A stretch of 64,000 nucleotides of DNA from Onchidella celtica (Eukaryota > Mollusca > Gastropoda > Systellommatophora > Onchidiidae), in assembly GCA_963931925.1 (NCBI GenBank), contig OZ007569.1, forward strand, positions 46,057,021 to 46,121,020, in the 5' to 3' direction. A program made the translations under genes and the position numbers. Shown here one piece after another: positions 10,548-64,000 of this stretch. Every line of letters begins with the position of its first letter. The first letter of the stretch is position 1. The notes beneath the pieces are model-generated. The model ran no database searches. It had not been told where the DNA came from and worked only from the letters and a program-made list of their open reading frames with translations.

Positions 10548-10576
10548 CCTGGCTGAGCTTCACAGTCTGGTTGAGG

Positions 10577-18180: not shown

Positions 18181-18181
18181 T

Positions 18182-18560
18182 AGTCACCTGTCACCTGTCG
18201 GCTTCATCGTCATCGATGTTAGCTGCTACAGTGGATGTCACGACAAAATCTCCTCCACCCAATCCTGTCCTTAGGTTTCCTAGTTAGTTCACTTATTTCC
18301 AGCTGGCTGACTTTCTTGATGTTATCGTGATATGTAATGGGTGGTCTTCCTTGTTTTCTCTTTGTTTCTGTCTTTCCTTGAAGGATTGATATCATAAGGG
18401 CCGTGCTTTTGTTTCGGGCCGCGTGGCCGATGTATGCAAGTCTTCTTTTATTTATTTCAGGTGTTATTCTTCTGGTGGTACCAAGCTGTTCTAAGATGCT
18501 TGTATTTGTTCTCCTTTCTGTCCAACTTATTCTGAGTAGCCTTCTGTAAAGCCACATTTC
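18182..18560 (-). mobile_element. RTE-like LINE 3' fragment nested in the L2-like element
   Basis: Minus-strand frame MWLYRRLLRISWTERRTN, then RRLAYIGHAARN and KRKQGRPPITYHDNIKK, the classic C-terminal signature of RTE-type ORF2 proteins. It ends in a short tandem tail, GACAGGTGACAGGTGAC, as RTE elements do. It interrupts the L2-like RT between SFVL and SKLDYC, so it inserted later. Confidence 0.8.
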
Positions 18561-18561
18561 A

Positions 18562-19140
18562 GTACAAAAGAATTTACTAAAACAGCCGCAGTTTCAGTTG
18601 AAATAAGATGTCTGATTTTACCAATTTTCCAGATTTCCATGTACAGAATACGAATGAGGTGACTAACCTGAGATGACATAGAAAGATTTGAATCAATGTA
18701 AACCCCTAGGTTTTTTACTTTTTTTGAAATTTCTATTGAATTAGTGCCAATTATCATCTCAGTTCTGTCCACTTCTTGCAGAACCCGCTCACGGCCCAAT
18801 AAAATAACCTCAGTTTTATCCTCATTTAGTGCCAGTTTGTTTTGGTTCATCCAGCTTTTAATTTCTGTTATACAGTTTCCAGCCTGCTGCAGAAGGCTGT
18901 CAACATCGCATGGCAAGGCAGAACTGTAGAGCTGGGCATCATCAGCATAGAAATGATATTGTAAATTAAATTTCTTTATTTCATGTACAAGTGGAATAGT
19001 ATAGATAGTAAACAAAATAGGACCAAGCACTGAGCCTTGTGGTACGCCATACTGAAGCGCATAAGAAAAAGATCTTATTTTGTTGGTTACAACAAATTGG
19101 TGGCGATTTGACAGGTAAGATTCGACCCATTTAAGGGCGA
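18562..19140 (-). pseudogene. Catalytic part of the L2-like reverse transcriptase
   Basis: The minus-strand frame holds the RT palm: GVPQGSVLGPILF, FYADDAQLYSS with the YADD box, NEDKTEVILLG and KNLGVYIDSNLSMSSQV, ending at VLVNSFVL where the RTE-like insert begins. The N-terminal RT and endonuclease are absent. Confidence 0.85.
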
Positions 19141-19214
19141 CCCCTCTGATAAGTCAGTTAAAATGCATACATTTTATATAAAATTTACAAGAAGGTTTTT
19201 GCACAATAGATATG

Positions 19215-20869
19215 ATCACAGTGACCTTACCTCTCATATTTCAAGGAATGGGTCTGTTCACTTCCAGGTGACTGGAAGAAAGCAAATGTAGTACCCATTT
19301 TTAAGAAAGGAAATAGAGCTAGTCCTGAAAATTATAGACCAGTCTCCCTGACATCAATATCTTGTAAACTTTTAGAGCATATCTTGCACACCAGCATCAT
19401 GAAGCATCTCGAGAAACACTCAGTTTTAACACATGTACAGCATGGTTTTAGAAAACACAGGTCGTGTGAGTCCCAGCTGGTCACAACTTGCAATGATTTT
19501 GTTAATAACCTGAATAACAACAGGCAGACTGATACCATCTTATTAGATTTCAGTAAAGCCTTCGATAAAGTGCACCATGCTAGTCTCTTGACTAAACTAA
19601 ACCATTATGGAGTTAGAAACAGTACTTTGAAGTGGATTAAGTCTTTCTTAGAAAACAGAACACAGATAGTCGTCGTTGACGGAAAGTCATCCAATCCTGC
19701 AGCTGTTCTCTCGGGAGTACCCTAGGGTACTGTAATGGGCCCCTTACTATTCCTAGTTTATATTAACGATATGCCAAGTAAGATCTCTCCAGGCACTAAA
19801 TTACGACTGTTTGCTGATGATAGCCTCCTCTATAGAACAATAAACTCAAAAGAAGATACGGAAATTTTACAGAAAGATCTAGACAGTCTACAAAAATGGG
19901 AGAGGGACTGGCGTATGGAATTCCACCCCAATAAATACCAAGTCCTGAGAATTTCAAATAAAAAACACAACATCACCTCAGACTACTTTATACACGACGA
20001 AAAATTGAGCGAAACACATGAGGCTAAATATTTGGGAGTTACATTGGACAGAAAACTTACATGGAACCAACATATTAATAACACGTGTAACAAAGCAAAC
20101 GGTATACTAGCATTTCTAAAAAGGAACATCTCTAACTGCGATAGGACAGTAAAAGAAAAATGCTATAACACCTTTGTGAGGCCCTCCCTAGAGTATGGCT
20201 GCAGTGTCTGGGACCCCCACTGTCGAATAAACATAGACCAACTGGAAAGGGTCCAGAGGAGAGCTGCCCGCTTTGTGACAAATGACTATACTAGAAGTAG
20301 TAGTGTAAATAAAATGATGAGAGACCTCGAGTGGACACCATTAGAAGAGAGGAGAGCAAAAAACAAAGTAAAAATATTTTATAAAGGCAGGGAAGGAAAT
20401 ATCCATATCCCACTGAACCACCTCACCATTAATAATACCAGAGGCAACAGAAGGAATAATATAAAATATAACATCCCAAGCTCACGGGTTAACAGCCATC
20501 TTTATTCTTTTTACCCTAGTGTCATCAGGATGTGGAACAACCTCCCGGCAGAAGTCCAAACACTATCGTCTGCAACGACTTTCGACAATGAATTTAAGAA
20601 CATTATTATCCATTGCAGCTACCATTGTAACTAAAGTGCGGGTTGTATTTCTGTGCACAATCTGGAAACCAAGAGATATTTATACCAGAGTTATATATTA
20701 TATACAAAAGAGTTTATACAACTAATTTATTTTTAAATGGTCTTAATATCTATGTAAGGTTTTACCCTGCTTTTAGCCTCGGAGGAGCGACGTTGAGTCG
20801 CATACTATAGTGCGGTTGGGGAATCGTCTTATAGACGGACCAACTACAAAAGAAGAAGAAGAAGAAGAA
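19215..20869 (+). mobile_element. Jockey/CR1-like LINE, 5'-truncated, GAA tail
   Basis: RT coding sequence from about 19225 to 20634, then a 3' UTR of about 210 bp ending with a GGTTGGGGAATCGTCTTATA-type stretch and a (GAA)n tail at 20849-20869. There is no RNase H and no endonuclease in the copy. Assignment to a clade beyond Jockey/CR1 type is uncertain. Its tail ends about 310 bp upstream of the first DCAF4 exon. Confidence 0.85.
19261..20634 (+). pseudogene. LINE reverse transcriptase with a single nonsense codon
   Basis: The frame reads GDWKKANVVPIFKKGN, NYRPVSLTSISCKLLEHIL, QHGFRKHRSCESQL, DFSKAFDKVHH, then GVP-stop-GTVMGPLLF, FADD at 19810-19821, AKYLGVTLDRKLTWNQH and a C-terminal RMWNNLPAEVQ. 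The one defect is TAG at 19723-19725 where the family has Gln of the PQG box, a single C-to-T change. Otherwise the frame is open to 20634. The copy is a dead but young-looking LINE fragment. Confidence 0.88.
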
Positions 20870-46900: not shown

Positions 46901-49900
46901 AGTGTTCCTGCACTCTGGCCACATCCACCAGATGTACAGGCTTCTGCCTTTAGCTCATATGTGGTGTAAGGAGTCAGTGGAGGAGACAAACCTACAGTCT
47001 GTCTCAATGATGGAGAGGATGATGCCTGAAACATCATAAATCAAACAATGTGCTACAGTCTCATCTAAAAATATCCTGAACAGTTAAAAAAAAAAATGGA
47101 AATACACTACATTATATTGGAAGGTTTTTAATATTGTTATATATATTCAAATTAATCATCCTACTGCAAGATACAGATGTTAAATCTTTGAAGCCCACAT
47201 TTTTCCTCCTGCATGGATAATAAAATTTTGTTGGATATCAATTTATGGGGCATGCTCAGCACAAATCACTGACAAATTTATCTCCTGCTTCCAACAAAAT
47301 TGCAACTGTTCTCTCTAAGCTGCACGAGTTATTGTGCTCAACATTATGTGTTGCTGGGTTGGGCCAAAATAGATATCAAAAACTGTATGTGTTTCTTGGA
47401 TATGATGAAGCTCAAATATAATTTCGGAAATACATTGCATATCAAATGGTAGGTTGCTTTAATAGACACTTAAATGGTGCAATTAATATTCAAACTTTTG
47501 TCAGAAAGATTTGCAGTTAACAACTGAAGTAATACATAAGACTGACAATGAAGTGCAGCGATTCCCATAATCAAAGAAGTAGGAAAATGGGAATTATTGA
47601 TAGATTGAAGATGATGAGGATAACAACATAGTTTGGTGACTTACCACTGAACCATTGACCAGGATTCTGTAAAGCCTAACAACTCCATTAGGCACATCAG
47701 GGGGTTGGCATGTTACTGAGATAGTGGTAGAGGTGCTTGACTGCAATAGACAATAAATTCCACATTTATATCATGTAAAGTGTGCAAAATGTATTCAAAG
47801 CACGTCTCATATTACCTTAATCCATGACCAATCAGCATAACCCAAAGTGAGTATGATTTGCAGATAATCAGTGTATGATGCAACTTTCACATTTATTTCT
47901 ACTGAGACAAAATACTTTTCCCAGAAAGGCCATAATGCAAATAACTCAAGGAATATGATGTACTTTAATTACAGTCCAATCCACTTATCTCGACATGGCT
48001 TTTCCCGACATTCTGGGTAACTCGACACAATTTTTAAGTCCCACCCTGTTCCTTCTTTAATGCTATTAAATATTTCCTCGTAACTAGACGTTATTCCATT
48101 CTTTCCTCTTATACTGACACATTTCTCCCCGACCGCAGCAAAACAAGTGCACTAGATCTACTACTGTGCTACCAAAAATGCCAACACAACTCCCTGCATA
48201 TAATACCTCTTTATTTCTTTTTGCGGTGCTGGCAGGGAGGGATAGAAGAGAGGATGTGTGGACACAGAGGATGGCCCTTGGCTTCAGTAACGCGAGTGTG
48301 ACTGGAATGCCTTGCATAAGTGTACGGCAGTAAAGGTACAGAATGTACAGACTGAGTAATTTTTTTTTTTCACAAAACACTCATGCCTTGACCTAGATCT
48401 CTCGGTTAACTGCCACACTGTGTGTGTATCGGTATCATTTCTTCTAAAGAAACAGTCAGGTCGAGGTTAAAAAAAAAAGTAAAGCACTGCACATTTGATA
48501 ACTACAGCATTTCTCTGATATCGGTAAATCTTTGCCACGCAACTGCTCCGCACAACAGTGATATTGGAGGAACGGGTGACACTGACAATATGGCGATAAT
48601 TAAAAGAAAAAGGGACATAATTGCGTAATTTATTGGGCACTTCCCATTATGGTGATATTTGATTCCCCCCACCCCCTTTTTTTTCTCTTCCACCACTAAT
48701 CTGCTATTTCGACTTTCTCTTTACTCAACACAAGTCAGACTGTCCCACTGATGTCGAGATATTAGGATTGCACTGTAAATGATACAATAATTTCTGTGAC
48801 TGAAAGATATCACACACAGCCTTATTCACTGATGAATAAATATTACGGTAAGGGTGTTCAGGTTTGAACATGACGAAAAACAAGATTAAACAATTAAATA
48901 AGAATTTAGCTGAAAATAGAAAAACAAAGGCAAATGGTTGCAGCTTACATTGACCAAAGGAGGCAAGATCCCTTGAGGTTGGCCTTCCCTGGTTGTCACT
49001 GATGCCCAAGGACTCCCAGCTTTTCCCACAGAGTTGACAGCTATAACCCTATACTGATACTGCCTATAGGGTCGTAACTGTGTGGAATTGTCAATAAAAA
49101 CTGAGCTAGTCCCATTGTAAACAAGTACTGACTCTTCATAGTTCAGGGCAGCTCCTGTATTTGAGACTGGAACAAAATGAAAAATTTGATAGAATAAACA
49201 TCAGAAATTGCACAAACTAGTGATATTACAAGACAAATTTAAATATATCAAAATCTATCTAAAGCTGAGGTAACAGTCTTTACCTGTCATGTTTAAACTA
49301 GAACCAGATAAAAATGAACAAATCTCCCAGTCAGCATCCCTATATGTCAGTCAATAGTGTACTGCATGGGTGGATTTCCTACGTCATACAGACGGGGGCT
49401 CAATGTCGTAACCTGCGGGTCTACTTCGGAACAATATCATAACTAGCAGACCTAAGTAGAAACAATGTACTACTATGAACAAACTTGAGGTTAGTCCTAC
49501 ATGACAGACTGAAACAGGGTTTCTGCCCCGGCCGTCTGTGCCTTCTGAACTTGAACTTGAAGACAGTGGCAACTTTTTCAGTTTGCTGATTGTCTTTGAC
49601 TGCTTTTGTCTTGTCATATATTACACTGATAATGAGACAATAATTCTGAAATATTTTTCCTGCATCTTTAACTTAAAGTATGTCCATACTTTGAATTCAC
49701 TAATGTCAAGAAAACTTACCACTAGTGACACTCCTACGTAGCAGTTCATAATTTCTGATAATTCCATTAGGTTTCTCAGGACTTTCCCAAGATGCTCTGA
49801 TGCCAGAATGAGCCCCATATTCATCGGCAAGGGCAAGCAGGGCTGGGGCGGGTTGATTCTCAGGTAGAGCCGGCAATGTTTGGGCTTGGGCGGGTTGGCT

Positions 49901-52900
49901 AATTTCACAACCACGATTAGTACAGGCTTCAACTCTAAATATGTACTGTGTATAATACTGAAGCCCTGGGACAGTATAAGACAACTGGGAGGGACTGCCT
50001 GAATAAACCTTGTTTGTTCCTGTAAAGACAGAGGTTTTACTAAATTCAGTTTTGTTTGTTATTAGAATTAGTCATGTAAAGTACATTCACCTCATTCCCA
50101 TATTTGTCTGAACAGATTTTTCAGATAAATTTCTTTCACTAAGCTGCATTCATATAGAGGTTACACTTGCTAAATAAGCTGGGGAAAAAAACACAATAAA
50201 ATCTATACCTATCGCAGATAAATTTTTTCTGAGTCTTACTAAATATACGCATTTCACCTTCATAGACTGTGTAATTTGTGAGTTCTCCATTTGGATTAGC
50301 TGGTGGAGACCAGTCAACTTTGATGGAGGTTGAGGACGTAGGTGTCAATTTGGGTGGAGCTAAACCTGTAGGTGAAGCCGAGTATGTCTTAGCCCGTGCT
50401 GGCCCACTTTCCACACTACCTTTCCTGCAGAGTATACACATGTTGAGACCTGTTATTCAAGTTTTAAAGCATGTCAGCTTGGTTACAGCTAGTTTGTGCC
50501 CAATATAAGTTGGGGTCTAAGTTTAATTCTTATAAATACAAATAGTTTATGTAGAAAATTTGCAGAAACACAAAGTATAAAGTCTTAAATAGTAGCTTAA
50601 CCTAGTTTTACAAACCATTCAGACACCCCCTTACTTTGTTTTATTTGCCTTACATCATTTCTGGTATTCTTCCATTTTATAAATAGTCCTGGGCCATCCC
50701 TATGCCATCTTCACTTCATTAGGAAATATTATTTGAAACAGTTACAGGTCATGAGGGAACCAGTGAAAACTTCTCTGAGAAGTGAAAAGAGAAACTACTG
50801 TCACTTCCCACATCTCTGAACTGGACTGAACAAGAACAAGTGCTATTTCTGAAGCCGATCATGAGTCAAATAGACTTCTACATTTTTACAACGATGTAAT
50901 AGTAAGTATAACATGTCTTAAACATCTGAAGCTAACAGCATTAAAAAAAACAAGGAAATTTGGAGAGTATTTGCACAAATTTTTCAATAGCAATTTCAAA
51001 ATGGTTTTTGTAATAGTGAGATGTGGCGTAGTTCTCTTTTCTGCATCAATAAGTTTAGTTAGTACATAAACACCTGTGCAGACAACTGAGATTTGTTTTA
51101 AACAACAATTTTCAAACTACACATGGCCATACTCATAGTTTAAATGAAAGGTGATTATTTCAAGGAATTTGAAAATATGGACACTAAAGCTGAACATTCT
51201 TGAATTCCTGAATGCTTTCAAATTATGAAATATTGATTACAGTGCTTCACCTGTTCCTGGCTACAATGGTATAAGAATATTCTATCCCTGGCTCAAGGCT
51301 GTAGTCTGGGTAGGATGTCAACAAAGTTCCACTAATAGTGATACTTGTTGTGTAAATCAGCCGTCCATTTCTGCGCACATCATAAGATGAAATGATTCCA
51401 TTTGGGTTTGCAGGGGGAGACCATGTGATCTCTATAGCAATAGAACTGATGACTCTGAGGAGAGGAGGAGACAACCCTGTGGGAGGTGCATCATCAGCTC
51501 TTCCAATTACCTCCCCACTTTCTGAACAGCCTCCACTTGTGCAGGCTGTTAAAGTAAACACATGCTTTTCATATGGAACAAGACCTCCCACATCATAAGA
51601 CTTCTGCGATCCAGTATAGATGAAAAGACCGTCCATTTTCAGTTTGTACTGAGTAATGACACCATTGCTACTGACAGGTTCCATCCAAGTTGCTTTCACA
51701 GCAGTTGAATTTATTGGTGCAATTGTTGGTGGTAAGACTGATAATGGTGCTGCCTCAAGAGTTCTGATGGTAGCTGGGTCACTAGTGGTACAGCCACCTC
51801 CTGTACAGGCTGTTAGAATATAAGAGTACAAGGTATAAGCTGCTAGTCCAGTATCTACAAACTGTAAATCTCCATCAGCAGGAAAGGAAAATGGGACGGT
51901 CGTGTTTCGTTGTATCTGGTATCCTTGGAGTACTCCATTCAGCTGGGAGGGTGGTGACCATGTGACATCAATACTATGGATGTCACCAGTGACATGAGAC
52001 AACTGAGGAGGCTGCACTCCTTCTGGTGCTGCTTGGGAAGTTTGCACTGACTGCCAAGGACTGTCAGAAAAACCTTGGGCATTAGTGGCACGAATAGCAT
52101 ACTGGTATTGCGTGTATGGCTTTAAGTTCGTGTCTGTATATTCAAATGAATCATGATCTGTGTCAGTAGTCTTGTACACAACTTCTGGATTATTTGCTTG
52201 TCTCTTTGACCGTCTTATATGCATTGGATCATTCACATTGTACCAAATATCAATAATTTCATTTTGCTTTAATATATTTCCCTCACTTGGATAGGATTGT
52301 CTGGAAAATGTAGGATTCATGCCCAAACAATTGATACTGTCATACATGCAAGTGCACATGTCACTGGAACATTGTGAAGATTTAGAATCTCCATTTGTAC
52401 TAAAGTCATCAAAAGAAAAGTAAAGAGACAAGTTCTTGATTTCTCTTTTACGTCTCAATGCATTACTAAGACGAAGCACTTCATAAGATGTGATTTCACC
52501 ATTGGGATTTAATGGTGGATTCCAGGTTAAGCGAACATGAGTTGCATTAACTGTCCCAACTGTAGGACTTGGCTGGGCAGCAGGAGCAATTTCAGCTGTA
52601 AAGAATGTCTGGACCTTCCCGACTGTACAGCCAACTCTTGTACATGCTTCTAGCTTGACATTATATTCAGTGTAAGGAGAAAGACGTTGAAATTCAAATT
52701 CCTTGGCAGTGCCACTGTACACAGCGACAGTGGATGTTAAATCATAAACTCTGTATGTTGTAATGACTCCATTTTGTTTTTCTGGAACATTCCATGTCAG
52801 AATAACAGCTTTGCCAGAATTAATTTTTTCGACAGAGAAGTCTGATAGGCCTGCTGGGAAACCTTCTCTTGTTGTGAAGTTTACAGATGGGGATCTCGTA

Positions 52901-55900
52901 CTTCCTACACCATTCACTGCCTCCATGTATAATACATAGGGTGAGAATGCTTCCAGGCCACCAACAGATGTGCTGTTTACATCTTTTCCTACACTGACAA
53001 ACTCCTGTTGGTTTGTGGATGTAGCTGGATCTTTCTGATAAATGACCTTATATTCTCTAATTGGTCCATTTGGGTTTCTCGGGGGTGACCAAGATAAAGA
53101 GATCCCATAAGTTCCAACATGGTTAATGATGGGGGCTGATAAGTCAGTAGGTGGGGCTTCCAATGTTCTAACAGAAGTCCATTCACTCTCTGCATCACCC
53201 TTTGAATTTACAGCAACAACCTGGCAAAAAAACATTAAAAATTTTAGTTCAATACTCACCTGGATTGAATTCATGAATGTGTGTTTGAGTGTCAATAGAC
53301 ACATTTTCTTACTTAACAGCTCCACGGAAAACAAGTTATTCCTCCCTTAGAAATGCAAAACCTCACTTGACATCTTCATAAATTATAAATTGATGTCATG
53401 ATTTCATTTCCTAATTATTGTAACTTCACTTATAAAGCCCTAGTTAAGGTAAAAACAAAGAAAGCAATCTTACTGGGCTGTATTCATTTTCTGTGTTGAC
53501 CCAGGGTTATCACAAACAAACTGGTAAAATATTAAACAGTGAATTCAAATTTACATCCCAAATATATGACTAAAAAGTTACCTTGTACTCATAAACTTGA
53601 TATGGCATCAAGTCTTGGCCTGAATGAAGGAACTGAAACACACTGCCAGGCACTTGATTGATGAGAATCTCTGAATCTGGCAAGTTTGGCATTCGCTGAA
53701 AAATCCTGTAATATGTAATCACACCATTTGAATTTGTTGGACGTTCCCAAGCGATGAAGATGGCATTTGAGGCAACTGGTGTTAATGTGGGGTCTTTCAT
53801 TCCTTCTGGTACATCTTCATCTGTTCTCACTAGAACTCCACTGCTTGTGCCACAGCCATTGAGAATGTTACGTAGACATGCTTGAAGCCGAACTTCATAT
53901 TGAGTGTAAGGTAACAAGTCTGGAATCGTTATCTTTGTTTCCTGTCCTACTCCTCTCACAACCTGGAAACAAAGAAGATTTTCATTTTAAATCATAATTT
54001 TAACATTTCTCGGTGTATGTGGCAATTTAAGGTGACCATGTCAGTTTAAAAAAATGCTCTTGCAAAAAGAAAAATTTGTGTGCAAATATTTCTCACAAGT
54101 GAAATTCAAGTGGCCAAGTACTTAATGGCCATGCTAAAGAAATTATAAACACTTGAGAATACTGTCTCAAAACCACTAGTTTAAATTTTATGAAGTGAAC
54201 TGTGTGAACAAAATTTTGCAAAGGTCATTGGCAATTCTGTTCTTTGGAAGTTATTTTTCCCTTTTTTTGTGTCATGTTTTAGGCATTCTCATTGCAAATC
54301 TTATAAAAATCTTACTGGTTACTTGTTGAAACTATCCTGATTTTTATTTTCTACTCACTGATGACATAGAAATTGGAATAAAAATAACTTAATTTGTTCT
54401 CCATTCCTTGACAATACAAGCAATGAGCAAATTAAAAAGGCTGATATTTTTACCTCCGTTTCTTGCCCGATGTTGAGCAGCACTCGGTACTGATCAATGT
54501 CCCCTTGACTTGATGTGATTGGCAGCCACTGAACTTGAATGGCAGTGGGGCCCAACACTGTCACTGACTGAAATCCGGTATTACATCTTTTATCTTTTTC
54601 TTATCAGAAATAAAGAGTCCTTTACAACAAACTTACCTAGTGATAAATTCATCAAATTACATGATGTAACCCAATTTTTACTGCTAACATAACCCATTTT
54701 CCAATAACAAGAAAATCTGAATTTCACTTTAATTCTCAGCTAAAGCTAAGAAATATGGTTAGGTAAAGACTATTACAATTTTAACTGCAAGACAAATGAC
54801 AGAAGGTCAGAAATTAAAGTATTTTGATCAGTCTTTTTCACTAAATATCTGCACAAAACCTTTTCAAACCAATATTATTTCTTTCAGCAAACACTGTACA
54901 CTTGCAAGAGCTGAAAATTTCACAGCCAAAACAACACAGATAAAATGCATGCGCCTTCTTCAATATGGAACATCAATACCGATCAGGGCTGCTGTGACAA
55001 TATGGTCAGCGATCAAGTTTTCTCTTCCTTTGAAGTCTCTATCTTTCCAGGATTATGATGTCTTACTATATCGTTTTCAAATCAAAATATGGCAAAAAGA
55101 AAAAGTTTTAGGTAGCAAAGCCTCACTTAAGAAATAATACAGAAACAATACAATAAAACACAAAGGAAAAGGGAAGACAAATCAAGCTTTCAATCGATTG
55201 ACCTTCAGCAGAAAAAAAAAAATGTAACGGAATATTTTTCTTCTTGCCATAGTTTGAATTTGCTTCAAACCTTGCTGCCATCCCACAGATTTTCTGTGGT
55301 TTCTATACTAAAAAGTTACTCTCAAATCAATTCACCCACCTGCGGAGGAGGGACATTAACAGGGGCCATTGTAGGCATGATGATTTCCCTGGGATTGCTT
55401 CGTACTGCACCAGCTCCGTTGCTAACCTCCAGCTGATAGGTATAAGACTGGCCTGGGGTCAGACCAGTTAGTTTGATGAATGTGTCACTGCCAAAATAAA
55501 CCTCAGTCACAGGGGCTGGTTGGGTCTGCATAGGTTAAGAAAACACAAAGAATGGTTTTCAAAGCTGAATATACCAGAGGCTGCAACTTAATTAGTAATG
55601 TCTTTATTTTTTCAATGAGGAACAGGAGAGATAGCACAACAATTAATTGCCTTTGAATCTGGGCCGTCTATGAAGTACAAGAAGTTTGGAGACGGGGGGG
55701 GGGGGGGGGGGGGGGGGGGGGCTCTTGCATAAGAAAAACATACACAGGGGAGTGACAGTTCCTGGGGAGTGTGTATACGTTTTTATGATAATATATTATA
55801 AAGTTTGCTTCCATATTTACCTTTTGCAAGCAAATTAAGCTATTGGATTACATAAAAATCAGGAGGTTGAAGCCACATGAAAAGTGTACATGGGGGAAGG

Positions 55901-57257
55901 GGGATAAAAAAAACAACAGCCAAAATCACACATACATGAATGGCCCATTGGCATGATTCTGTATGATTTCTAATCGTACTTATGCTTTACTCTTTTTTGT
56001 GGCATACCCCAAAGAACTGCTTGCCTGCTAAGTTACAACTTTCAAGATGATGAGACAAAACCCTCTTCCAAAGCTCTCTAAATTTTAACTTTGCCTCTTT
56101 GGAATGTCTATAATGGGTAGGTGAATGCATGACGCGGTGAATGGGTGGGCAAGTGAATTAGTGACTGAATTACTGCATCCGGAAAATTCCAAACTACTAA
56201 TTATAACCATTACATGTGTGCACCTTGGTCCCATGTCTTTAGATGGATGATCCTGTTATTAAAAAGCAAATAAAATATTCACCTGAAAAACTTTATATCC
56301 TTGTATAACACCATTAGGAAAGTCTGGTCCCCGCCAGTACAATTCAAGGCTGTCAGAACTGATCACAATAACCCTTGGAGGCAACAAGCCTGAAAGTCAA
56401 TGGTTCTCAGTTTAGAAAAGGAACACATTAAACTGGACACGCTAGGACTAAGGAAGCTTTACCAAGAATTCTATTTTTAAGGTTCAATGTCATAGGATGT
56501 TAATTTCCAATACAGTGTTCAAGGAATACCCTTACAACATCACAACGCAGGCTGCGTTGTACCGTCTGCTGCTAGGGAAGCGTACGACACAGTGTGCGTT
56601 GTACAGTAGGGAAAGATTTATGAAAACAATTTCAGTACAGTCATTTTCATCCATATTACATCCCAGCCATTAACCCTAGCTGACACCTGATACTGACTGC
56701 TAGTTTGCTTACATGAATGATGTCGTGTCTATGTAAATCCACTGGTTACAACATTGTGGTGCTGTCAGAGTTATGTAGTGTCAAGAACTGTAAAGAGGTG
56801 GGGATACCCAACGTAAACATTTTTAAAGAAAATAAACAACCAGACCCTGAACAACAGGGGGCCAAAGCTCAGACAAGGAGCCAGCCCCAGCAATGCAAGC
56901 ACAGCCTCACGTCATTATGGCCGCAGAGGCGAGGATTGACACATTCTACTGCAACATGGGAAGCGAAGATGCGGAGAGGTTTGAAGGACCATTCTGCATC
57001 TTACATCAGCCTACCAACCCTATATAAATCCCAGGCAAATCTCATGTCACATTGATGTAGGGATGCTGGCTGGGTTACTCTTGCTTAAGCCAAGCAGGAA
57101 AATCAAAATTCACATGCAATATCTGAAACAAACAGTTCATGGTTTTTACCCTCTGGCAGTGCTTCACTTGTCACAACAGTCACGTTAGGACTTGCTGAAC
57201 ATGCCACAACAGTACACACTATCATCTCAGCTGTGTAGGATGTATAAGGACTCAAAT
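37870..57257 (-). CDS. USH2A: Usherin, C-terminal portion (partial gene)
   Basis: Seventeen exons on the minus strand, all with GT/AG ends and matching phases, total 4,940 nt (about 1,645 residues). They encode some 15 fibronectin type III domains recognised by the W-x-P-x3-NG pattern (LSWSPPRNPNG, ITWSPPANPNG) and by the usherin-typical paired cysteines (ACTSGGC, ACTRVGC). Then come a single transmembrane helix (IWFIVLMCIIALLILFIALA) and a cytoplasmic tail of about 140 residues ending TVFTDTHL. DTHL is the class I PDZ ligand through which vertebrate usherin binds harmonin and whirlin in the ankle-link complex of hair cells and the periciliary membrane of photoreceptors. The laminin-type N-terminal region lies outside the window. 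Introns are full of transposons, including a large LTR element upstream of the first exon seen here. Confidence 0.95.
38501..38605. repeat. Perfect tandem duplication, 53-bp unit
   Basis: ACAATAAACAACCTTCTTTG and the following 33 bases, through GTTTAGGAATGC, occur twice in immediate succession (38501-38553 and 38554-38605) with no visible differences, so the duplication is recent. In an USH2A intron. Confidence 0.9.
38672..38860 (-). CDS. USH2A: USH2A exon, cytoplasmic tail
   Basis: 63 codons from VIIPAKHRNRDNVYQGSGPG to LKWGRPFDSGL. Acceptor TATTCTGCAG, donor CTG/GTTTGT. Acidic LDDDDL and basic clusters; intracellular. Confidence 0.9.
38877..39811. mobile_element. Probable pogo/Tigger-like MITE abutting a USH2A splice site
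   Basis: TA-CAGTGGAACTTGGTGATAAC begins at 38877, and a diverged inverted counterpart, GGTCCACTATA, ends at 39811, with TA at each edge. GTCTCGTATACCCGAGGTCTC near the left end is typical of pogo-type termini. No transposase frame. The right end is poorly conserved, so the limits are tentative. Confidence 0.4.
39812..41108 (-). other. USH2A intron
   Basis: AT-rich intronic sequence. No element with defined ends is recognised. Confidence 0.5.
41109..41371 (-). CDS. USH2A: USH2A exon, transmembrane helix
   Basis: Encodes TTPAPPVSDRQEGDSKEFYE, the membrane span IWFIVLMCIIALLILFIALA, then the stop-transfer CIRRSGSREPYVRERMPLQR and the juxtamembrane tail to VIDGS. Acceptor TTGTTGTGTAG, donor AGT/GTAAGT. 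Confidence 0.93.
41499..41730 (+). mobile_element. tRNA-derived SINE
   Basis: A pol III A box TGGTCTAGAGG (41510-41520) and a B box GGATTCAAATCCC (41552-41563) are correctly spaced. Downstream lies a conserved-looking body (CTCGGATATGGACGAAAAAG, GTGTGCATGTTGCGTGCATT, TGGAAATCATGAAGAGTAGG). The body resembles the central/3' domain shared by many invertebrate SINEs, possibly MetaSINE-like, from memory. The head cannot fold as a true tRNA. In an USH2A intron, antisense to the gene. Confidence 0.7.
41731..42456 (-). other. USH2A intron remainder
   Basis: No coding or repeat structure is recognised beyond the SINE to its left. Confidence 0.5.
42457..42546 (-). CDS. USH2A: USH2A exon, end of the last FN3 domain
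   Basis: A 90-bp exon too short for routine ORF calling: ISFIIQAITYSGQAESPVIV, then FDPNAVDN. Acceptor AATCCACAG, donor GTAG/GTAAGT. Both phases match the neighbours. Confidence 0.88.
42547..44631 (-). other. USH2A intron with a diverged 130-bp duplication
   Basis: TTTAATTGGCATGGACTGAG near 43347 recurs as TTTATTGGCATGAATTGAG near 43475, each followed by a related stretch ending GTGTATTGT. The frames at 43680-44075 show no domain. Nothing else is seen. Confidence 0.45.
44632..44811 (-). CDS. USH2A: USH2A exon, last FN3 domain core
   Basis: Encodes PVYDRYPRLSKVDTLAMISW, then NDSFTLNGRLREYMLFADG and ITLEYGVERETKDQ. Acceptor TATCGATCACCAG, donor CAAG/GTATAG. An FN3 with the core Trp but without the usual WxPP. 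Confidence 0.9.
44812..46217 (-). other. USH2A intron
   Basis: Holds the GGCCGGGTTGAACA minisatellite (separate entry). Nothing else is recognised. Confidence 0.5.
45674..45820. repeat. GGCCGGGTT minisatellite
   Basis: A 34-bp unit starting GGCCGGGTTGAACAAATCAG is present twice back to back (45727-45760 and 45761-45794), followed by a third partial unit and preceded by diverged copies of the GGCCGGGTTGAACA core. Conspicuously GC-rich against its AT-rich surroundings. Confidence 0.85.
46218..46438 (-). CDS. USH2A: USH2A exon, FN3
   Basis: Encodes FEVYRRTACPRTFQPFNQTC through NLNPYTAYEFQVQAINDKG and WVRQETKAS. Acceptor TTTTGTCCTCAG, donor CATCAA/GTAAGC. Confidence 0.92.
46477..46621 (-). mobile_element. 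Extreme 3' end of a LINE with a 15-bp target duplication
   Basis: TTATGAATAGATGTA occurs at 46477-46491 and 46607-46621. The 115 bp between them, read on the minus strand, encode MAQDRQDWRSFVAALRTSG followed by a stop and an (AGT)n tail. These are the last residues typical of RTE-like LINE ORF2. This is a severely 5'-truncated target-primed insertion in an USH2A intron, in the same orientation as the gene. Confidence 0.85.
46781..47025 (-). CDS. USH2A: USH2A exon, FN3
   Basis: Encodes PLTPYTTYELKAEACTSGGC, the paired-cysteine strand, then the next FN3 start TTDLAWTLPSSPNGQMIR. Acceptor TGATGTTTCAG, donor ATAAG/GTTAGT. Confidence 0.92.
47026..47644 (-). other. USH2A intron
   Basis: No element recognised. 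Confidence 0.5.
47645..47740 (-). CDS. USH2A: USH2A exon, FN3 N-terminal half
   Basis: A 96-bp exon too short for routine ORF calling: SSTSTTISVTCQPPDVPNGV, then VRLYRILVNGSV. A Cys stands where the FN3 core Trp is expected. Phase 0 at both ends, acceptor CTATTGCAG, donor GTG/GTAAGT. Confidence 0.88.
47970..48777. mobile_element. pogo/Tigger-like non-autonomous DNA transposon
   Basis: TA-CAGTCCAATCCACTTATC at the left; its right end, read in reverse, is TA-CAGTGCAATCCTAATATC. Both continue TCTCGACAT, a 27-bp inverted repeat with few mismatches and TA target duplications at 47970-47971 and 48776-48777. TTCCCGACATTCTGGGTAAC just inside is the TCGACA-repeat pattern of pogo-type ends. A short frame MAIIKRKRDIIA near 48591 could be a transposase N-terminal relic, but this is weak. 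Confidence 0.8.
48949..49166 (-). CDS. USH2A: USH2A exon, FN3
   Basis: Encodes SNTGAALNYEESVLVYNGTS, then LRPYRQYQYRVIAVNSVGKA and GSPWASVTTREGQPQGILPP. Too fragmented for routine ORF calling; acceptor TTTTGTTCCAG, donor TCAAT/GTAAGC, phases match. Confidence 0.9.
49167..49719 (-). other. USH2A intron
   Basis: No element recognised. Confidence 0.5.
49720..50019 (-). CDS. USH2A: USH2A exon, FN3
   Basis: Encodes LSYTVPGLQYYTQYIFRVEA, CTNRGC, then ASWESPEKPNGIIRNYELLR. Acceptor TGTCTTTACAG, donor AGTG/GTAAGT. Confidence 0.92.
50240..50424 (-). CDS. USH2A: USH2A exon, FN3
   Basis: Encodes KGSVESGPARAKTYSASPTG, then SIKVDWSPPANPNGELTNYT and YEGEMRIF. Acceptor TATACTCTGCAG, donor TTTA/GTAAGA. 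Confidence 0.92.
50425..51250 (-). other. USH2A intron
   Basis: 826-bp intron, nothing recognised. Confidence 0.5.
51251..53220 (-). CDS. USH2A: USH2A large exon, six FN3 starts and a basic-site-flanked insert
   Basis: One 1,970-bp exon. FN3 cores appear in order: LSWSPPRNPNG, LTWNVPEKQNG, LTWNPPLNPNG, VTWSPPSQLNG, ATWMEPVSSNG and ITWSPPANPNG, with cysteine pairs ACTRVGC, ACTGGGC and ACTSGGC. After LRLSNAL, the third of these domains is interrupted by an insert of about 80 residues. The insert begins at RRKRE (52444-52455), contains four closely spaced cysteines (QCSSDMCTCMYDSINCLG) and ends at RRSKRQ (52201-52215). The two basic sites fit the furin-type RxxR consensus. Acceptor TTTTTTGCCAG, donor AACAG/GTGAAG. 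Confidence 0.93.
53221..53581 (-). other. USH2A intron
   Basis: 361-bp intron, nothing recognised. Confidence 0.55.
53582..53962 (-). CDS. USH2A: USH2A exon, FN3
   Basis: 127 codons: GQETKITIPDLLPYTQYEVR, QACLRNILNGCGTSSG, then IFIAWERPTNSNGVITYYRI and YQVYEYK. Acceptor TTTGTTTCCAG, donor AAG/GTAACT, phase 0. Confidence 0.92.
53963..54453 (-). other. USH2A intron
   Basis: 491-bp intron, nothing recognised. Confidence 0.55.
54454..54567 (-). CDS. USH2A: USH2A exon, FN3 N-terminal half
   Basis: 38 codons: SVTVLGPTAIQVQWLPITSS, then QGDIDQYRVLLNIGQETE. Acceptor CGGATTTCAG, donor GGAG/GTAAAA. Confidence 0.88.
54568..55339 (-). other. USH2A intron
   Basis: 772-bp intron. The plus-strand frame at 54796-55137 has no domain and is not supported. 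Confidence 0.5.
55340..55525 (-). CDS. USH2A: USH2A exon, FN3 C-terminal half
   Basis: 62 codons: TQPAPVTEVYFGSDTFIKLT, GLTPGQSYTYQLEVSNGAGA, then PTMAPVNVPPPQ. Acceptor CCTATGCAG, donor CGCAG/GTGGGT. Confidence 0.9.
55526..56282 (-). other. USH2A intron with a long poly-G run
   Basis: 757-bp intron. Apart from the poly-G run (separate entry) nothing is recognised. Confidence 0.5.
55694..55721. repeat. Uninterrupted run of 28 G
   Basis: G at every position; the USH2A transcript would carry 28 C. Length may be inexact, because homopolymers are prone to sequencing error. Confidence 0.85.
56283..56389 (-). CDS. USH2A: USH2A exon, FN3 N-terminal half
   Basis: 107-bp exon, too short for routine ORF calling: LLPPRVIVISSDSLELYWRG, then PDFPNGVIQGYKVFQ. 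Acceptor TTGACTTTCAG, donor TTCAG/GTGAAT. Confidence 0.88.
56390..57149 (-). other. USH2A intron
   Basis: 760-bp intron. The plus-strand frame at 56717-57055 shows CSVKNC, a weak THAP-like start, but nothing supports a gene. Confidence 0.45.
57150..57257 (-). CDS. USH2A: USH2A exon, FN3 C-terminal half (most upstream exon in window)
   Basis: Encodes DLSPYTSYTAEMIVCTVVAC, then SASPNVTVVTSEALPEG. Acceptor CATTTTATGCAG, donor GAGG/GTAAAA. The intron upstream contains the LTR retrotransposon beginning at 57439. Confidence 0.9.
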
Positions 57258-57438
57258 CTGCATAAAATGTACAATATATATGGAATGATTTTGTTAGAAA
57301 TTTGATACCAAAATTGCACTGAAAATCACGAAGTGTAAAGAAAAACAATCATCAACTGTCAGACACATCATTCTGGATGTATGTAATGTTTGTGTGGCCT
57401 TAGCCATTTGATTTATTATCTCTTTAGATTTAGGAAAG

Positions 57439-58724
57439 TGTCAGGATTAGGATTTGAATTGCCGTGCTGGGTCACGCATTGTTTATTACATGGCATCATT
57501 GATTTTAGTCAGTCCAAACGTCCTTGAACTGTTCCCGTGGACAGTTTGTTTTTGTAACGCTTTTCTTAGAGATGGAGAGAAAGTGGGTCAGGATAGAACG
57601 AATGGATAAATTAACAGTGACGATGCAGTTTGCAACCCCGTAGTTTGGGTGTACTTTAACAGGGAAAGACGGGGCGAATAAGGGGTGAATAAATTCGTAC
57701 ATAAAACGTTTAGGGTGTAGAGACTGTGCGAAAGGTTTTGACATCCTAAGTCTGACTTTGTCTGTTACTATTAATAGAATCTATTGGCGCTGCGAGCGGA
57801 GCTCGAAGTGGATGCACCAATCAAATTTGAGCAGTCACGTGATTTGCAGAAGATAAGCGGTGACATGTTTATGCTACCTGACTCCATGCAGCGTATCCTA
57901 TTCTGCGAAGGTGTCGGCTAAGGTTCAGCCAGAGGGAACCATAAGACTGTTAACGTCATGTCTATGTCCTGGATAGACAATGAAAATAACCCACAGCTCT
58001 TTTCTCCAGTTCCCTGAAATTGTTTCAGGGAACCAATCGTAAGTTTCATCACCATGATTCGAGATGATGTGAATCTGACCCTAACTTTCCAGTAGAAGTG
58101 CGACCAAAGGAATGCAAGACCATAAAGTTTTACTTGCAATTAAGATCTAGAACGAGTGACTGATATACACATTTGTAAATTGTAATTGATGTGTCTGGAT
58201 GAGGCTGGGGATTGCCAGCCCATCCTAGAACAGATCTAGATTAGATCTATCTTAACTACGTCAGTGTGTCTTGACGGTTTGATCCTTTATAAGCAGTTAA
58301 ATGAGTTAATATTGTCGTCTGAGACATAAGTATATTATTTGTGAAGTAGTAGGCAGTCTATATTTCTGAAGATAAATAATTACTAAGTAAACTGTGAATG
58401 AATCAGAATGATATAGAGTCTCAAATCTCTTAAGACTCTAGAGGAGATTTATAGTTATGTATTTTAGTATTTTCATTTGATGCTGCTGATGTTGTCTTTT
58501 GATATGTAAGATAGACGAAATTGTTAGGACTTTTAGGTAATAAATTTGTGGCCCTACAAGGTCCTTGATATAACTTACTCGAAATTGTTATTAGTGTATG
58601 TGGCATGGTATGGCAGAGTAATTTCTAAAACCTCTCGATTTAAATGCAGTCGAACACCTAAATTTATAGTTTAGTAATCCCCAACGTAACACTCGAGGGC
58701 ACACCCCTCTTCCAACTCGTAACA
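57439..58724 (+). repeat. 5' LTR
   Basis: Begins TGTCAGG, aligned with the solo LTR at 22114, and ends CGTAACA at 58724 or, alternatively, at 58691 where CGTAACA also occurs. Length about 1.25-1.29 kb. GAAAG at 57434-57438 would be the left 5-bp target duplication; the right copy is beyond the window. The TATAAAA box of the solo LTR is not conserved at the corresponding place. Confidence 0.85.
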
Positions 58725-58725
58725 C

Positions 58726-58743
58726 TGGAGAGGGACCCTTAAA
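58726..58743 (+). other. Candidate primer-binding site
   Basis: TGGAGAGGGACCC starts one base after the LTR end. It begins TGG, complementary to the CCA of a tRNA 3' end. Which tRNA was not determined. Confidence 0.5.
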
Positions 58744-59636: not shown

Positions 59637-60149
59637 GCAGTGGTAACAGAAGACACTGCGTGTGCGTGTTTTGAGAAGAGAGAGAATTTTGAGAGTGTTT
59701 TGAGAACACAGAGATATTTCAAATTTGTCGTGTTGAGAGAGAGATATAGTTTTGATTCATCGCATTGAGAGAGCGATTCGTTTTGACAGTGATAACAGAG
59801 GACACTGATTCTTGCGTTGAGAGAGACGTAAAATTTTGAGAGTGATCACTCAAGACATTAATTTATCGCAGTAAAGGCGATATATAGTATTTTATTGCAG
59901 TGGGAGCAACGGATAGACGGCACTGCCTTACTAGAATTTATATTGAGAGAGAGAGAGATAAAGTTTTTGCAGTTTAAGTGATACTGCCTGTAATTTTCAG
60001 AGAGAGATAAAGTGTTTGCAGTTTAAGTGATACTGCCTGTAATTTTCAGAGAGAGATAAAGTGTTTGCAGTTTAAGTGATACTGCCTGTAATTTTGAGAG
60101 AGAGAGATAGAACGTTCTTTTCGCGAAGCAGTGCTAACATAAGACACTG
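59637..60149 (+). repeat. Array of CAGTG/CACTG stem-loops upstream of gag
   Basis: Inverted pairs, stem then loop length: GCAGTG/CACTGC 59637-59659 (11 nt), CAGTG/CACTG 59787-59807 (11), palindrome GAGTGATCACTC 59840-59851, GCAGTG/CACTGC 59897-59926 (18), GCAGT/ACTGC 59969-59987 (9), 60018-60036 (9), 60067-60085 (9) and CAGTG/CACTG 60129-60149 (11). Centres are mostly 48-66 bases apart. Four loops are variants of TAACAxAAGA or TTAAGTGAT. Role unknown; packaging, dimerisation or translation control are possibilities. Confidence 0.75.
59963..60100 (+). repeat. Three tandem copies of a 49-bp unit
   Basis: TTTGCAGTTTAAGTGATACT-GCCTGTAATTTT followed by CAGAGAGAGATAAAGTG occurs three times nearly unchanged, the last with GAGAGAGAGAG. 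Each unit carries one stem-loop of the array. Confidence 0.9.
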
Positions 60150-60251: not shown

Positions 60252-61544
60252 ATGGCTGAGTTTCTTAAATATTTAGAATCTGCCAAAGTTCTGGGCATAC
60301 CAGAGGAAGAACGCGCCGCGTGGTGCGAACGACACGTACAACAAGACCGAGAGCGCGAGGATCGAAAAGAAGCAAGAGAAAGAGAAAGAGAAAAAGAAGA
60401 AAGAGAAAGAGAAAAAGAAGTAGAAAGAGAAAAGGAAAGAGAAAGAGAAAGGGAGAAAGAAAGAGAGAGAGAAAAGGAAAGACAGCATGAACTAGCAATT
60501 AAAAAGTTAGAGCAACAATCGCTTGTAACACCCACTACTGCCACCAATTCTTATGCTACTAAACCAAAACTACCACCATTTAATGAAAAACTCGACCGGA
60601 TCGACGCATATTTACATCGGTTCGAGTTACACGCTAAATGCGTCGGATGGCAGCAGGCGATGTACAGTTCATGCCTGTCCAATTTATTAACGGGTAAGGC
60701 TTTAGAGGTATTTCACAGCCTTAAAGTAGAAGATGCCAACGATTATGACAAGCTTAAAACAGCACTGCTTAAGCGATTCCAGCATACCGAGGATGGCTTC
60801 CATCAAAGATTTCGCTCATGTAAACCTGAGCCATCTGAAAATTTCTCAACTTATGTCAATCGGTTGAAACATTATTTAGATCGCTGGATAGAGCTCGCGA
60901 ACGTAACTACCGGAAATTATTCCCAACTATACGATTTGGTCTTAAAGGACCAAATCTATACCGCATGTCATTCCGATTTAGTCGCCCACCTTAAAGAGAG
61001 GGCTCCGACATCCTCTGAAGAAATCACATCGTGCGCCGAACGATACGCGTCCGCCCACCCAAATCGTCCTTTGGCAAAGCCTTCAACTACAACACCGTGT
61101 TATGCCAACGTAGGCAAAGGAGCGCCAACCGGACACGATCGTTCAAGGCCGACTCGTCGTCAGGCCCCAAATTCACGCTTTCAATCAGAGCCGCCTTTTT
61201 GTAGACAGAGAGATTTTCCGAATCGAGGTAATGCATCCCCGCGTCGAGGATATCAGACTTATTCTTTTTACGAGCCTCGCCCATATTATCGTGGCAACTA
61301 TCCAGGCCAACAATATAACCGGCCTCAGGGACCGCCGCGACGAGTGCATTTTGATGATAGTTATAATTATAGTAGACCGCAGAGTCTTCCCTATCGTGGA
61401 AACGATCCTAATCGTACTATATGTTATAAGTGTAATAGGGTAGGCCACATACAGAGATTTTGTAACGCGAAATTGGAATCAGCAAATGCCTGCTCGGTTA
61501 AACCTACACTTTATGAGACTGACGGTCATTCTGAATCTTCATGA
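60252..61544 (+). CDS. gag: Gag of the Gmr1-like retrotransposon
   Basis: 430 residues, ending at TGA 61542-61544. Residues about 30-80 are an almost pure Arg/Glu/Lys stretch (alternating RE, KE and ER), predicted to form a single charged alpha helix. Residues about 110-270 resemble the retrotransposon gag capsid domain (PFNEKLDRIDAYLHRFELHA, then LLKRFQHTEDGFHQRFRS and NFSTYVNRLKHYLDRW). A basic, Arg/Tyr/Pro-rich region follows. Near the C-terminus lies one CCHC zinc knuckle, CYKCNRVGHIQRFC (CX2CX4HX4C), which binds the element's RNA. The stop is in frame with pol. Confidence 0.92.
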   Translation: MAEFLKYLESAKVLGIPEEERAAWCERHVQQDREREDRKEAREREREKEEREREKEVEREKEREREREKEREREKERQHELAIKKLEQQSLVTPTTATNSYATKPKLPPFNEKLDRIDAYLHRFELHAKCVGWQQAMYSSCLSNLLTGKALEVFHSLKVEDANDYDKLKTALLKRFQHTEDGFHQRFRSCKPEPSENFSTYVNRLKHYLDRWIELANVTTGNYSQLYDLVLKDQIYTACHSDLVAHLKERAPTSSEEITSCAERYASAHPNRPLAKPSTTTPCYANVGKGAPTGHDRSRPTRRQAPNSRFQSEPPFCRQRDFPNRGNASPRRGYQTYSFYEPRPYYRGNYPGQQYNRPQGPPRRVHFDDSYNYSRPQSLPYRGNDPNRTICYKCNRVGHIQRFCNAKLESANACSVKPTLYETDGHSESS

Positions 61545-61550
61545 CAATCA
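61542..61550 (+). promoter_or_regulatory. Predicted UGA readthrough site between gag and pol
   Basis: Gag ends TCA-TGA and the same frame continues CAA-TCA-AAG into pol with no further stop. CAATCA fits the CAR-YYA hexamer that promotes stop-codon readthrough in tobamovirus-type signals. This is the only stop between gag and pol, and the frame does not change. Function is an inference. Confidence 0.65.
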
Positions 61551-64000
61551 AAGACTATTCCAGTCATGTCCGCCCTACATGAACTGGGTGAATTAACATT
61601 TTACCAGGGCCGCGTGAACGCGATTCGCGCTTCTGTTCTACGTGACTCCGGATGCACGACTATCGGCGTTCGACAGTCACTAGTCCGTCCAACACAATTT
61701 TTGGACAAGGAGGTAACTTGTATTACTTTTGGCGGATCTGTAGAGCGATTCCGTCTTGCAGAAGTTTATATTGATACACCTTTTCTCACAGGTATTGTTA
61801 CTGCATGTGTACTGCCTAATCCAGTGGCTGATGTAATCATAGGGAATGTACCTCAAGTAAATAAGTTTCCTATCGGTAACTTGGAAATTTGGACTGAGGA
61901 TGAGAGTATTGCTTGTGCGACAACACGCTTACAATCGAGTCGACGAGCAGACAGTCCATTGAGTAATCCTACTATTGAAGTGAACATAACGTCTAGTGCA
62001 TTTCATGATGAGCAACATTCAGATCCCACATTGAAACATTTGTTTGCTAAGGTTGATCCTACCGCACCGGATACCTCTAAGTTTCTTATTAAAGATGACT
62101 TACTATATCGTAATTTTCGGAATAAGCGAGAGGCCGTTATGCAACTTGTAGTACCGAGATCTTTTCGTCGCGACATTATTCGTCTCGCGCATGACACTTC
62201 CTTGGCGGGTCACCAGGGAAAGGCCAGAACTAAGTCTCGAATACTATCCCAATTTTTTTGGCCCAGTATTTACGCAGATGTAAACCGGTTCGTATCAACA
62301 TGTGACGTATGTCAGAGACGTACCCCTAAAGGAAGAGCATCGAGAGCTCCTCTGCAGGAGATGCCTATGGTCTCCAGACCATTTGAGCGCGTTGCCGTAG
62401 ATATAGTTGGTCCTCTACACAAGTCAGACAGAGGACATCGTTTTATACTTTCTGTCATTGACTACGCAACCCGTTGGCCAGAGGCCATTCCGCTAAAAGA
62501 CATTTCAGCTGATCATGTCGCTGAAGCTCTTATTACTATTTTTTCGCGTCTAGGGTTTCCGGTTGAAATTTTATCGGACAGAGGTCCACAGTTTACCTCT
62601 GAGCTTTTTAAGAAAGTCTTGGAATTGGTCGGGATTAAACAAAGATTGACATCTCCATACCACCCACAGTCTAATGGCTGCTGTGAACGTTGGAATGCTA
62701 CCATGAAAAGTATGCTTGCACGAGTTTCCGCCGACAAACCGAGTGATTGGGATCGACAACTCCCCGCTATTCTTTTTGCATACCGAGAACTACCGAACGC
62801 ATCGACGGGTTTTTCTCCCTTCGAATTATTGTATGGTCGTAAGCCGCGTGGTCCAATGGCCATACTCCATGATTTATTCGCCGGATCAGACACCGACGAC
62901 AACGATACGCGGTCTGCATATCAATACGTTGTAGACTTGCGCCAGCGAATTCTTAACGCATGTCAGCTCGCACAAAAATCTTCAGCTGCGCATGCTAGTC
63001 TTTATAAACAATATCGTGATCAAGGTAGCCGATTGCGAACCTTGACCGTCGGAGACCAAACTCTTGTTCTCCTTCCGGAAACGAAAAATAAACTCCTCCT
63101 TACATGGAAAGGACCTTTCAAAGTTCTAAAGAGACTTTCTCGAGTAAATTATCTTATCAAGATTCGGGGACAGGACAAAGTCTTCCATATAAATATGTTA
63201 AAGCAGTACCTATCCGACGATGATAATCGACAGAATAATCACCGAAATGTGGTTGCACAGGCCAATGCGGCCTTGGTTTCAGTTGACGATGATGATCCTA
63301 TTAAGATAGAGAATTCAATACCCGCACTTCGATCTTCTGAAAACACTTCGGATGTGAATATAAATCCAGATTTATCTGAATCGCAAAGGCAAGATTTAAG
63401 AGATTTGCTTAACGAGTTTACTACTGTCTTTACTGATCTACCAGGTAATACTTCTTTGGTACAGCATGTTATAAGATTAAAGACGGATATACCCGTCTTT
63501 GTTAAACCATACCCGCGTCCGCTGCACGCACAAGAGACTATAATAACCGAGGTACGTAACATGTTTCACCTGGGAGTGATAGAACGATCGACGAGTCCAT
63601 ATAACTCACCCATCGTCTTAGTGAAAAAAAAAGATGATACCGTGCGTTTTTGTATTGATTATCGTAAACTTAATGAGGTTACGATATATGACGCTGAACC
63701 GATTCCCAACCAGGAGAATCTTTTTGCTCAGTTAGCGAGGGCAACGATTTTTTCTAAAATTGATCTTTCCAAAGGTTATTGGCAAATTCCGCTTGATGAG
63801 AATAGCAAGCAATATACCGCCTTTCAGACCCCGTTGGGTCTTATGCAGTGGCGCTATATGCCTTTCGGGTTAGTTACAGCCCCTGCTACTTTCGCCCGTA
63901 TGATGACAATATTGCTCCAGGGTATGAATTCCGTATTGTCGTATTTTGACGACATTTGTATTTATGAAACCGATTGGTCGGGCCACATCGCAGCCCTACG
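61545..64000 (+). CDS. pol: Pol of the Gmr1-like retrotransposon (partial): protease, integrase, reverse transcriptase
   Basis: 818 codons open to the window end. Protease: VLRDSGCTTIGV holds the D-S-G active site. Integrase: HHCC finger (RLAHDTSLAGHQ, then STCDVCQRR), and catalytic D at codon 62400 (VDIVGPL), D at 62577 (LSDRGPQF) and E at 62685 (GCCERWN). A GPY/F module follows (TWKGPFKVLKRLSRVNYLIK). The RT comes after: VKKKDDTVRFCIDYRKLNEV, KIDLSKGYWQIPL, FGLVTAPATFARMM and the YFDD catalytic box at 63942-63953. The integrase-before-RT order is unlike ordinary gypsy elements. Pol may start by readthrough of the gag stop; the first internal Met codon is 61566. RNase H and the 3' LTR are expected beyond the window. 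Confidence 0.93.

Follow-up and report, generated by a model that had tools for sequence, protein, structure and literature searches.

The window analysed here, a stretch of 64,000 nucleotides, ends inside an open reading frame in which an integrase (IN) precedes a gypsy-type reverse transcriptase (RT). Such an order recalls Gmr1, an element that Goodwin and Poulter are said to have described in 2002 from Gadus morhua, and the initial annotation of the locus accordingly proposed a Gmr1-like pol. The locus thus raises the questions of whether the frame belongs to an intact element of this kind, and how such an element might express its gag and pol genes. As set out below, it very probably forms part of a Gmr1-like LTR retrotransposon of the Ty3/gypsy group that is complete and very young, resides in the genome of a probable mollusc and belongs to a family of several hundred copies.

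A complete LTR retrotransposon with integrase upstream of reverse transcriptase

BLAST comparison of the upstream with the downstream flank of the frame returned a single repeat of 1,286 bp at 100% identity (0 of 1286 sites differing). Its termini are TG...CA, and GAAAG is found at both outer edges as a 5-bp target duplication. The element therefore spans 57439-66710 (9,272 bp), its 3' part lying beyond the end of the 64-kb window (Table 1). Extension past position 64000, which the initial annotation had recommended, revealed both an RNase H domain (Pfam 1.8e-33) and the 3' LTR, just before which a polypurine tract can be recognised by eye. From the pol stop codon to the outer boundary of the 3' LTR there is no open reading frame of at least 100 aa, and hence no second integrase downstream of RNase H, an objection that had been foreseen. 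The element is complete and recently inserted, and as a Gmr1-like element it is ordinary in kind.

Gag and pol share one reading frame and are separated by a stop codon. The match to the CCHC knuckle of Gag scores below its Pfam cut-off, and a single-sequence fold of the capsid region (pLDDT 42) was too poor for use. Pol comprises, in this order, a protease motif, an H2C2 finger, a DDE core, an integrase C-terminal domain, RT and RNase H. The finger, the DDE core and the YFDD-containing RT of the initial domain list were recovered with Pfam, whereas the protease on that list is represented by its motif and has no Pfam match. The catalytic triad of the integrase is of the DD35E type (D286, D345 and E381), with 35 residues separating D345 and E381.

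Table 1. Features of the element in window coordinates; positions above 64000 lie beyond the window end.
Feature	Position	Strand	Description
5' LTR	57439..58724	+	TG...CA, 1286 bp, twin of the 3' LTR, GAAAG outside
Primer-binding-site candidate	58726..58738	+	TGGAGAGGGACCC, starting with TGG, one base inward from the 5' LTR; by eye
49-bp tandem repeat	59950..60105	+	3.2 copies, in the long leader
gag	60252..61544	+	430 aa from first ATG; charged coil, capsid, one CCHC knuckle; TGA end
SCAN-domain match in capsid	60795..61058	+	Pfam 1e-6, 28.9 bits, cut-off 27
gag-pol junction	61542..61550	+	in-frame TGA, then CAATCA; fits STOP-CARYYA
pol	61545..64000, on to 64745	+	1066 aa, in the frame of gag
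Protease-like motif	61641..61667	+	RDSGCTTIG (DSG); motif alone, no Pfam match
Integrase H2C2 zinc finger	62151..62327	+	Pfam 6.6e-21
Integrase DDE core (rve)	62373..62687	+	Pfam 1.4e-13
Integrase C-terminal domain	63111..63207	+	Pfam 4.6e-7; p58_C above cut-off, SH3_Tf2-1 slightly below
Reverse transcriptase	63453..64000, then RNase H to 64745	+	YFDD at 63942-63953
3' LTR	65425-66710 (window equivalent of L009:2446-3731)	+	identical to the 5' LTR

The leader is rich in GAGAGAGATA motifs between 59600 and 60110, and the copy number of its 49-bp repeat seems to vary among element copies, judging from BLAST pieces. Several other features were noted in the surroundings. A large gene on the minus strand, which we take to be usherin-like, is represented at 49706-54000 by frames with fibronectin type III domains, with seven fn3 stretches in the ORF at 51247-53346. 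FN3-like frames were also suspected by eye directly beside the element; Pfam returned nothing for 57106-57348 and L009:4695-5033, and a match below the cut-off at L009:5603-5926. Farther upstream, the window contains a non-LTR-type retrotransposon frame at 12382-14772 (RVT_1 1.2e-29, RNase_H 5e-14), further frames of this type, seen by eye, at 17728-20634, and a PH-domain protein on the minus strand at 9801-10559 (Pfam 2.5e-22), presumably sesquipedalian-like. Elsewhere in the same genome, the haemocyanin beta-sandwich domain PF14830 has 33 matches in three clusters on one chromosome. This domain is not known outside molluscs, which makes a mollusc the probable host; it was absent from all 14 control genomes, those of them that are named including prokaryotes, so that these controls do not bear on other animals. 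An assembly of 1.14 Gb in 43 contigs makes a gastropod plausible. A search with Egg_lysin had no match either here or in any control and carries no weight.

Affinity to Gmr1-like elements

The nearest PDB match of the integrase is Ty3 (7.6e-28, 100.8 bits), with foamy virus a close second (1e-27, 100.4 bits); the match to 7z0h, which we take to be the copia-type integrase of Ty1, ranks far below Ty3 (1.5e-6). For RT-RNase H, the nearest matches are 4ol8 (4.6e-67), presumably Ty3 as well, and Ty3 Gag-Pol (9.7e-67). Since no copia-type RT (RVT_2) was matched by Pfam in pol and both enzymes are nearest to Ty3 in the PDB, membership in Ty1/copia was rejected. The Pfam domain order and these PDB matches bear out the original reading of gypsy-type enzymes with integrase upstream of RT in one frame.

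Scoring candidates with an RNase H model (the best 150 of 12612) led to a second integrase-first gypsy family, of which one copy was read (C2:759700-765500; L062, L063). This copy has an unbroken gag-pol frame of 1506 aa, comprising a gag with a SCAN domain (33.8 bits) and two zinc-knuckle matches, a protease motif, integrase, RT and RNase H; no ORF of at least 150 aa occurs within 1.6 kb after the frame. Its identity to the window element amounts to 48% in IN and 44% in RT-RNase H. Integrase-first gypsy elements are therefore no single oddity in this genome. Many of the best 150 RNase H places carry frames of about 1500 aa. A separate scan for DUF7041 scored 150 places, many of them gag genes with this domain in several frame-length classes, which probably belong to other gypsy families. 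Searched against the 28 top RVT_1 loci of the genome (L001-L008, L011-L030), the IN, RT and gag of the window element gave no match at 1e-4, and an IMG/VR search with RT-RNase H yielded no confirmed relative.

The order protease-integrase-RT-RNase H is the one given for Gmr1 in PMC2582038. The SCAN domain is reported to resemble Gmr1-like gag and to derive from it, and in frogs it was found exclusively in Gmr elements (PMC4592553, PMC4131045). Based on domain order, Ty3-nearest enzymes and a SCAN-type gag, features compared by description and not through Gmr1 sequences themselves, the assignment as putatively Gmr1-like is well supported. An independent origin of the order, in a new integrase-first gypsy lineage outside the Gmr1 clade, appears very unlikely. 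The identity of 44-48% to even the second family of the same genome would be compatible with such an origin; both families, however, combine a SCAN-type capsid with the integrase-first order. It is exceedingly improbable that the integrase of a foreign element lies next to a gypsy RT by chance, as the initial annotation had considered, and we rejected this explanation, in favour of which nothing was found: the frame is single and open, the LTRs enclose everything, the second-family copy has its domains in the same order, the genome contains at least 118 integrase matches, and 24 of the 30 fetched copies are collinear from protease to RNase H, aligning without gaps (3156 columns for 3156 bases; left out were L035, L058 and L060, broken or divergent in RT, and L041, L052 and L053).

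The initial annotation had further suggested that the element would widen the range of Gmr1 from deuterostomes to protostomes. Earlier cases precede this claim: a 2013 study of crustaceans reported Gmr1-like elements and presented them as the first of protostomes (PMC3587641), and the Gmr1-clade element LGF3 was described from the annelid Lamellibrachia in 2021 (PMC8220671). We therefore rejected a deuterostome-only distribution; Gmr1 is on record from deuterostomes, crustaceans and one annelid, and PMC8556966 did not find it in that study's own annelid set. Mollusca looks like a phylum-level addition, as far as the literature was searched, because the 21 gypsy clades tabled in a mollusc survey include none called Gmr1 in the portion available, where the name appears once, as background (PMC6238403). 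Searches of the open literature showed no mollusc Gmr1 among the papers listed. Some of the mollusc MolGy clades may be integrase-first without a published statement of it, as a survey that relies on RT-RNase H would not reveal where the integrase lies.

Family size and the polymorphic gag-pol junction

The integrase query matched the genome at least 118 times, with all listed matches at 99-100% identity (the best 118 of 15300 candidates, ranked by identity to the query). Three frame lengths predominate among these 118 matches: 1066 aa in 49, where a stop directly precedes pol, 1250-1251 aa in 33 and 1482-1514 aa in 19; the remaining 17 have other lengths. Among 30 fetched copies, the junction codon is TGA in 13 and TCG in 16, and one copy (L053) has no comparable junction. 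A genome-wide search with the junction itself, which does not depend on integrase identity, found 476 exact matches, against none for the reversed control. The first 100 of these 476 as listed, located on contigs C1-C3, comprise 47 TGA, 50 TCG and 3 other sense codons, and neither TAA nor TAG was present at the junction in these 100. The census is a lower bound in which TGA may be understated, because the strict pattern misses copies with altered flanks (among the copies read, 5 of 13 with TGA and 2 of 16 with TCG). As a side observation, some copies lie about 7.9-8.0 kb apart, close to the size of an element lacking one of its LTRs, and could thus be arranged in tandem with shared LTRs (C9:478002-494812, C10:31834001-31843017, C5:62462723-62471712 and C3:46625117-46634130).

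The hexamer CAATCA follows the stop in all 13 TGA copies read. It also follows the sense codon in 15 of the 16 sense copies, the exception being CAATCG in L057. The hexamer context may therefore predate the stop, which probably arose in a fused ancestor. Such an ancestor, with gag and pol joined as in the second family and the fish Gmr elements, probably preceded the split form, the stop being derived. In one review, CARYYA is described as able to stimulate UGA readthrough, natural cases being generally UAG (PMC3542737); in OPRL1 constructs, CARYYA gave about 15% readthrough, similar for UGA and UAG (PMC4132726). RNA folding gave no signal of structure around the UGA (z -1.0).

A capsid-less sub-family that recombines with full copies

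A deletion matching gag 60412-61183 was found in 13 of the 30 copies read. In 12 of these 13 capsid-less copies, the frame begins slightly upstream of the gag start and stays uninterrupted as far as the integrase (exception L050); in one, L058, it is broken farther on, in RT. The product joins the Gag N-terminus, the zinc knuckle and Pol in one frame of about 1251 aa. The 5' LTR is the same in the one capsid-less copy read upstream. Genome-wide, the deletion junction has 93 exact matches, with none for the control. Fifteen of these deletion junctions lie on C1-C3, and the 14 with a listed gag-pol junction comprise 12 TCG and 2 TGA (Fisher p 0.008). Without a listed deletion, the first 100 junctions comprise 38 sense and 45 stop copies. 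In view of these undeleted sense copies and TGA deletions, we dropped a strict scheme of two types, one with stop and full gag, the other with sense codon and no capsid. The family is unusual in this stop/sense and capsid-less polymorphism.

Identical stretches recur in varying combinations among the stop and the capsid-less copies. In a four-gamete test on 12 stop and 12 capsid-less copies, 2621 of the 5565 informative site pairs failed; incompatible pairs of close sites numbered 90, against a permutation mean of 155, and 0 of 1000 permutations gave a value as low. In the RT-RNase H tree, the form labels are intermixed (8 changes versus a shuffled mean of 8.2), and the well-supported branches alone demand just 3 label changes. 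The simplest cause of the mosaics is template switching inside shared particles, and the mosaic structure of stop and capsid-less copies suggests joint packaging; gene conversion, as an alternative source, is likewise compatible with the data.

Selection on pol and possible modes of expression

Pol is under purifying selection to a similar degree in TGA and sense copies. For RT-RNase H, 12 of the 13 TGA copies give a pN/pS of 0.083, and 14 of the 16 sense copies one of 0.093, after removal of over-divergent rows (L035; also L058 and L060). The integrase ratios (0.013 and 0.021) are biased, and those of RT-RNase H may partly be so, because the 30 copies were drawn from a list ordered by identity to the integrase of the window element. 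Higher values were obtained for the last 284 codons of gag in the 13 stop copies (0.24, the same when gaps are excluded) and for the protease-linker region (0.26), where one copy (L042) has an internal stop. Among pol variants outside IN that are private to TGA copies, 16 of 34 are nonsynonymous (18 synonymous), below the neutral expectation of 0.767 (p 3e-4), a value that ignores transition bias. The sense-private variants are similar (20 of 37 nonsynonymous, 17 synonymous; Fisher p 0.64 versus TGA-private). Both sets are few and consist mostly of singletons (22 of 34 in stop and 34 of 37 in sense copies), and one variant private to stop copies creates a stop. Constraint on pol behind the UGA means that this pol is translated and selected, now or until recently, or else refreshed by recombination, which could preserve the pol of TGA copies without readthrough.

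The element would be expected to follow the ordinary LTR-retrotransposon cycle of LTR-driven transcription, assembly of Gag particles, reverse transcription and integration with a 5-bp duplication. Judging from the sequence context, UGA copies would produce mostly Gag and some Gag-Pol, the latter by readthrough at UGA-CAAUCA, and capsid-less copies would be carried in particles made of the Gag of full copies.

A division of labour without any UGA readthrough is possible, if somewhat doubtful. Stop copies would then provide Gag and sense copies, full or capsid-less, Gag-Pol, and recombination would refresh the pol of stop copies. Such a division is consistent with near-even numbers of stop and sense copies (47 and 50 in the first 100 listed of 476), with the strong recombination between the forms and with the predominance of the sense codon among capsid deletions on C1-C3 (12 of 14), but under it the stop would hardly be expected in a known leaky context (CARYYA), nor the stop-private variants to be as constrained as the sense-private ones. 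A distinctly unlikely explanation is that the UGA is a plain disabling mutation of one amplified lineage, with no role at all. The stop is probably derived, because the second-family copy read and the fish Gmr elements have an uninterrupted gag-pol frame, and this much would agree with a disabling mutation; however, roughly every second junction sampled has the UGA, other stops are found in 0 of 100, and the pol behind the UGA is constrained.

Apart from the readthrough proposed for UGA copies, a broader scheme may be put forward tentatively, although we think it rather unlikely: the copies might act not as single autonomous elements but as a cooperating population, in which Gag comes from stop copies and Gag-Pol or Pol from sense and capsid-less ones, and their RNAs are co-packaged and recombine, so that the Gag:Gag-Pol ratio would be set by the mix of alleles, with or without readthrough. 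In one genome, hundreds of near-identical copies carry a gag-pol stop codon or its sense counterpart, and in some cases a capsid deletion, with recombination among these forms. The family thereby allows a single genome to address how Gmr1-like elements set their Gag:Gag-Pol ratio, and whether capsid-less copies depend on full ones; Mollusca would join the known hosts of such elements.

Comparison with known elements

With the Gmr1 clade, the window element shares the protease-integrase-RT-RNase H order, gypsy-type enzymes and a SCAN-type gag. The Gmr elements of pufferfish and kin are shorter: their consensus sequences measure 6.1-6.5 kb and their LTRs 337-518 bp, and gag and pol form one product of 1506-1634 aa (PMC11117352), whereas the window element measures 9.27 kb, has LTRs of 1286 bp and carries a UGA that splits gag and pol. 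Likened by description alone, the crustacean GyRex4/5, Gychoro2, GyMaja1 and GyLiva4 are likewise Gmr1-like elements of protostomes, GyRex4 and GyRex5 being partial (PMC3587641), and LGF3 of Lamellibrachia also belongs to the Gmr1 clade but comes from an annelid (PMC8220671). Ty3 (PDB 7q5b and, presumably, 4ol8) is the top match for both enzymes, yet in 7q5b RT (600-1009) precedes IN (1107-1443). The capsid-less copies resemble gag-deficient LTR elements. Barley BARE2 is a copia element that has lost the start of its gag. BARE2-like gag-deficient elements are also without a working capsid and are presumably moved by full relatives; in the family described here, by contrast, the capsid has been excised, in most cases without loss of the reading frame, and pol is joined to the remainder of gag.
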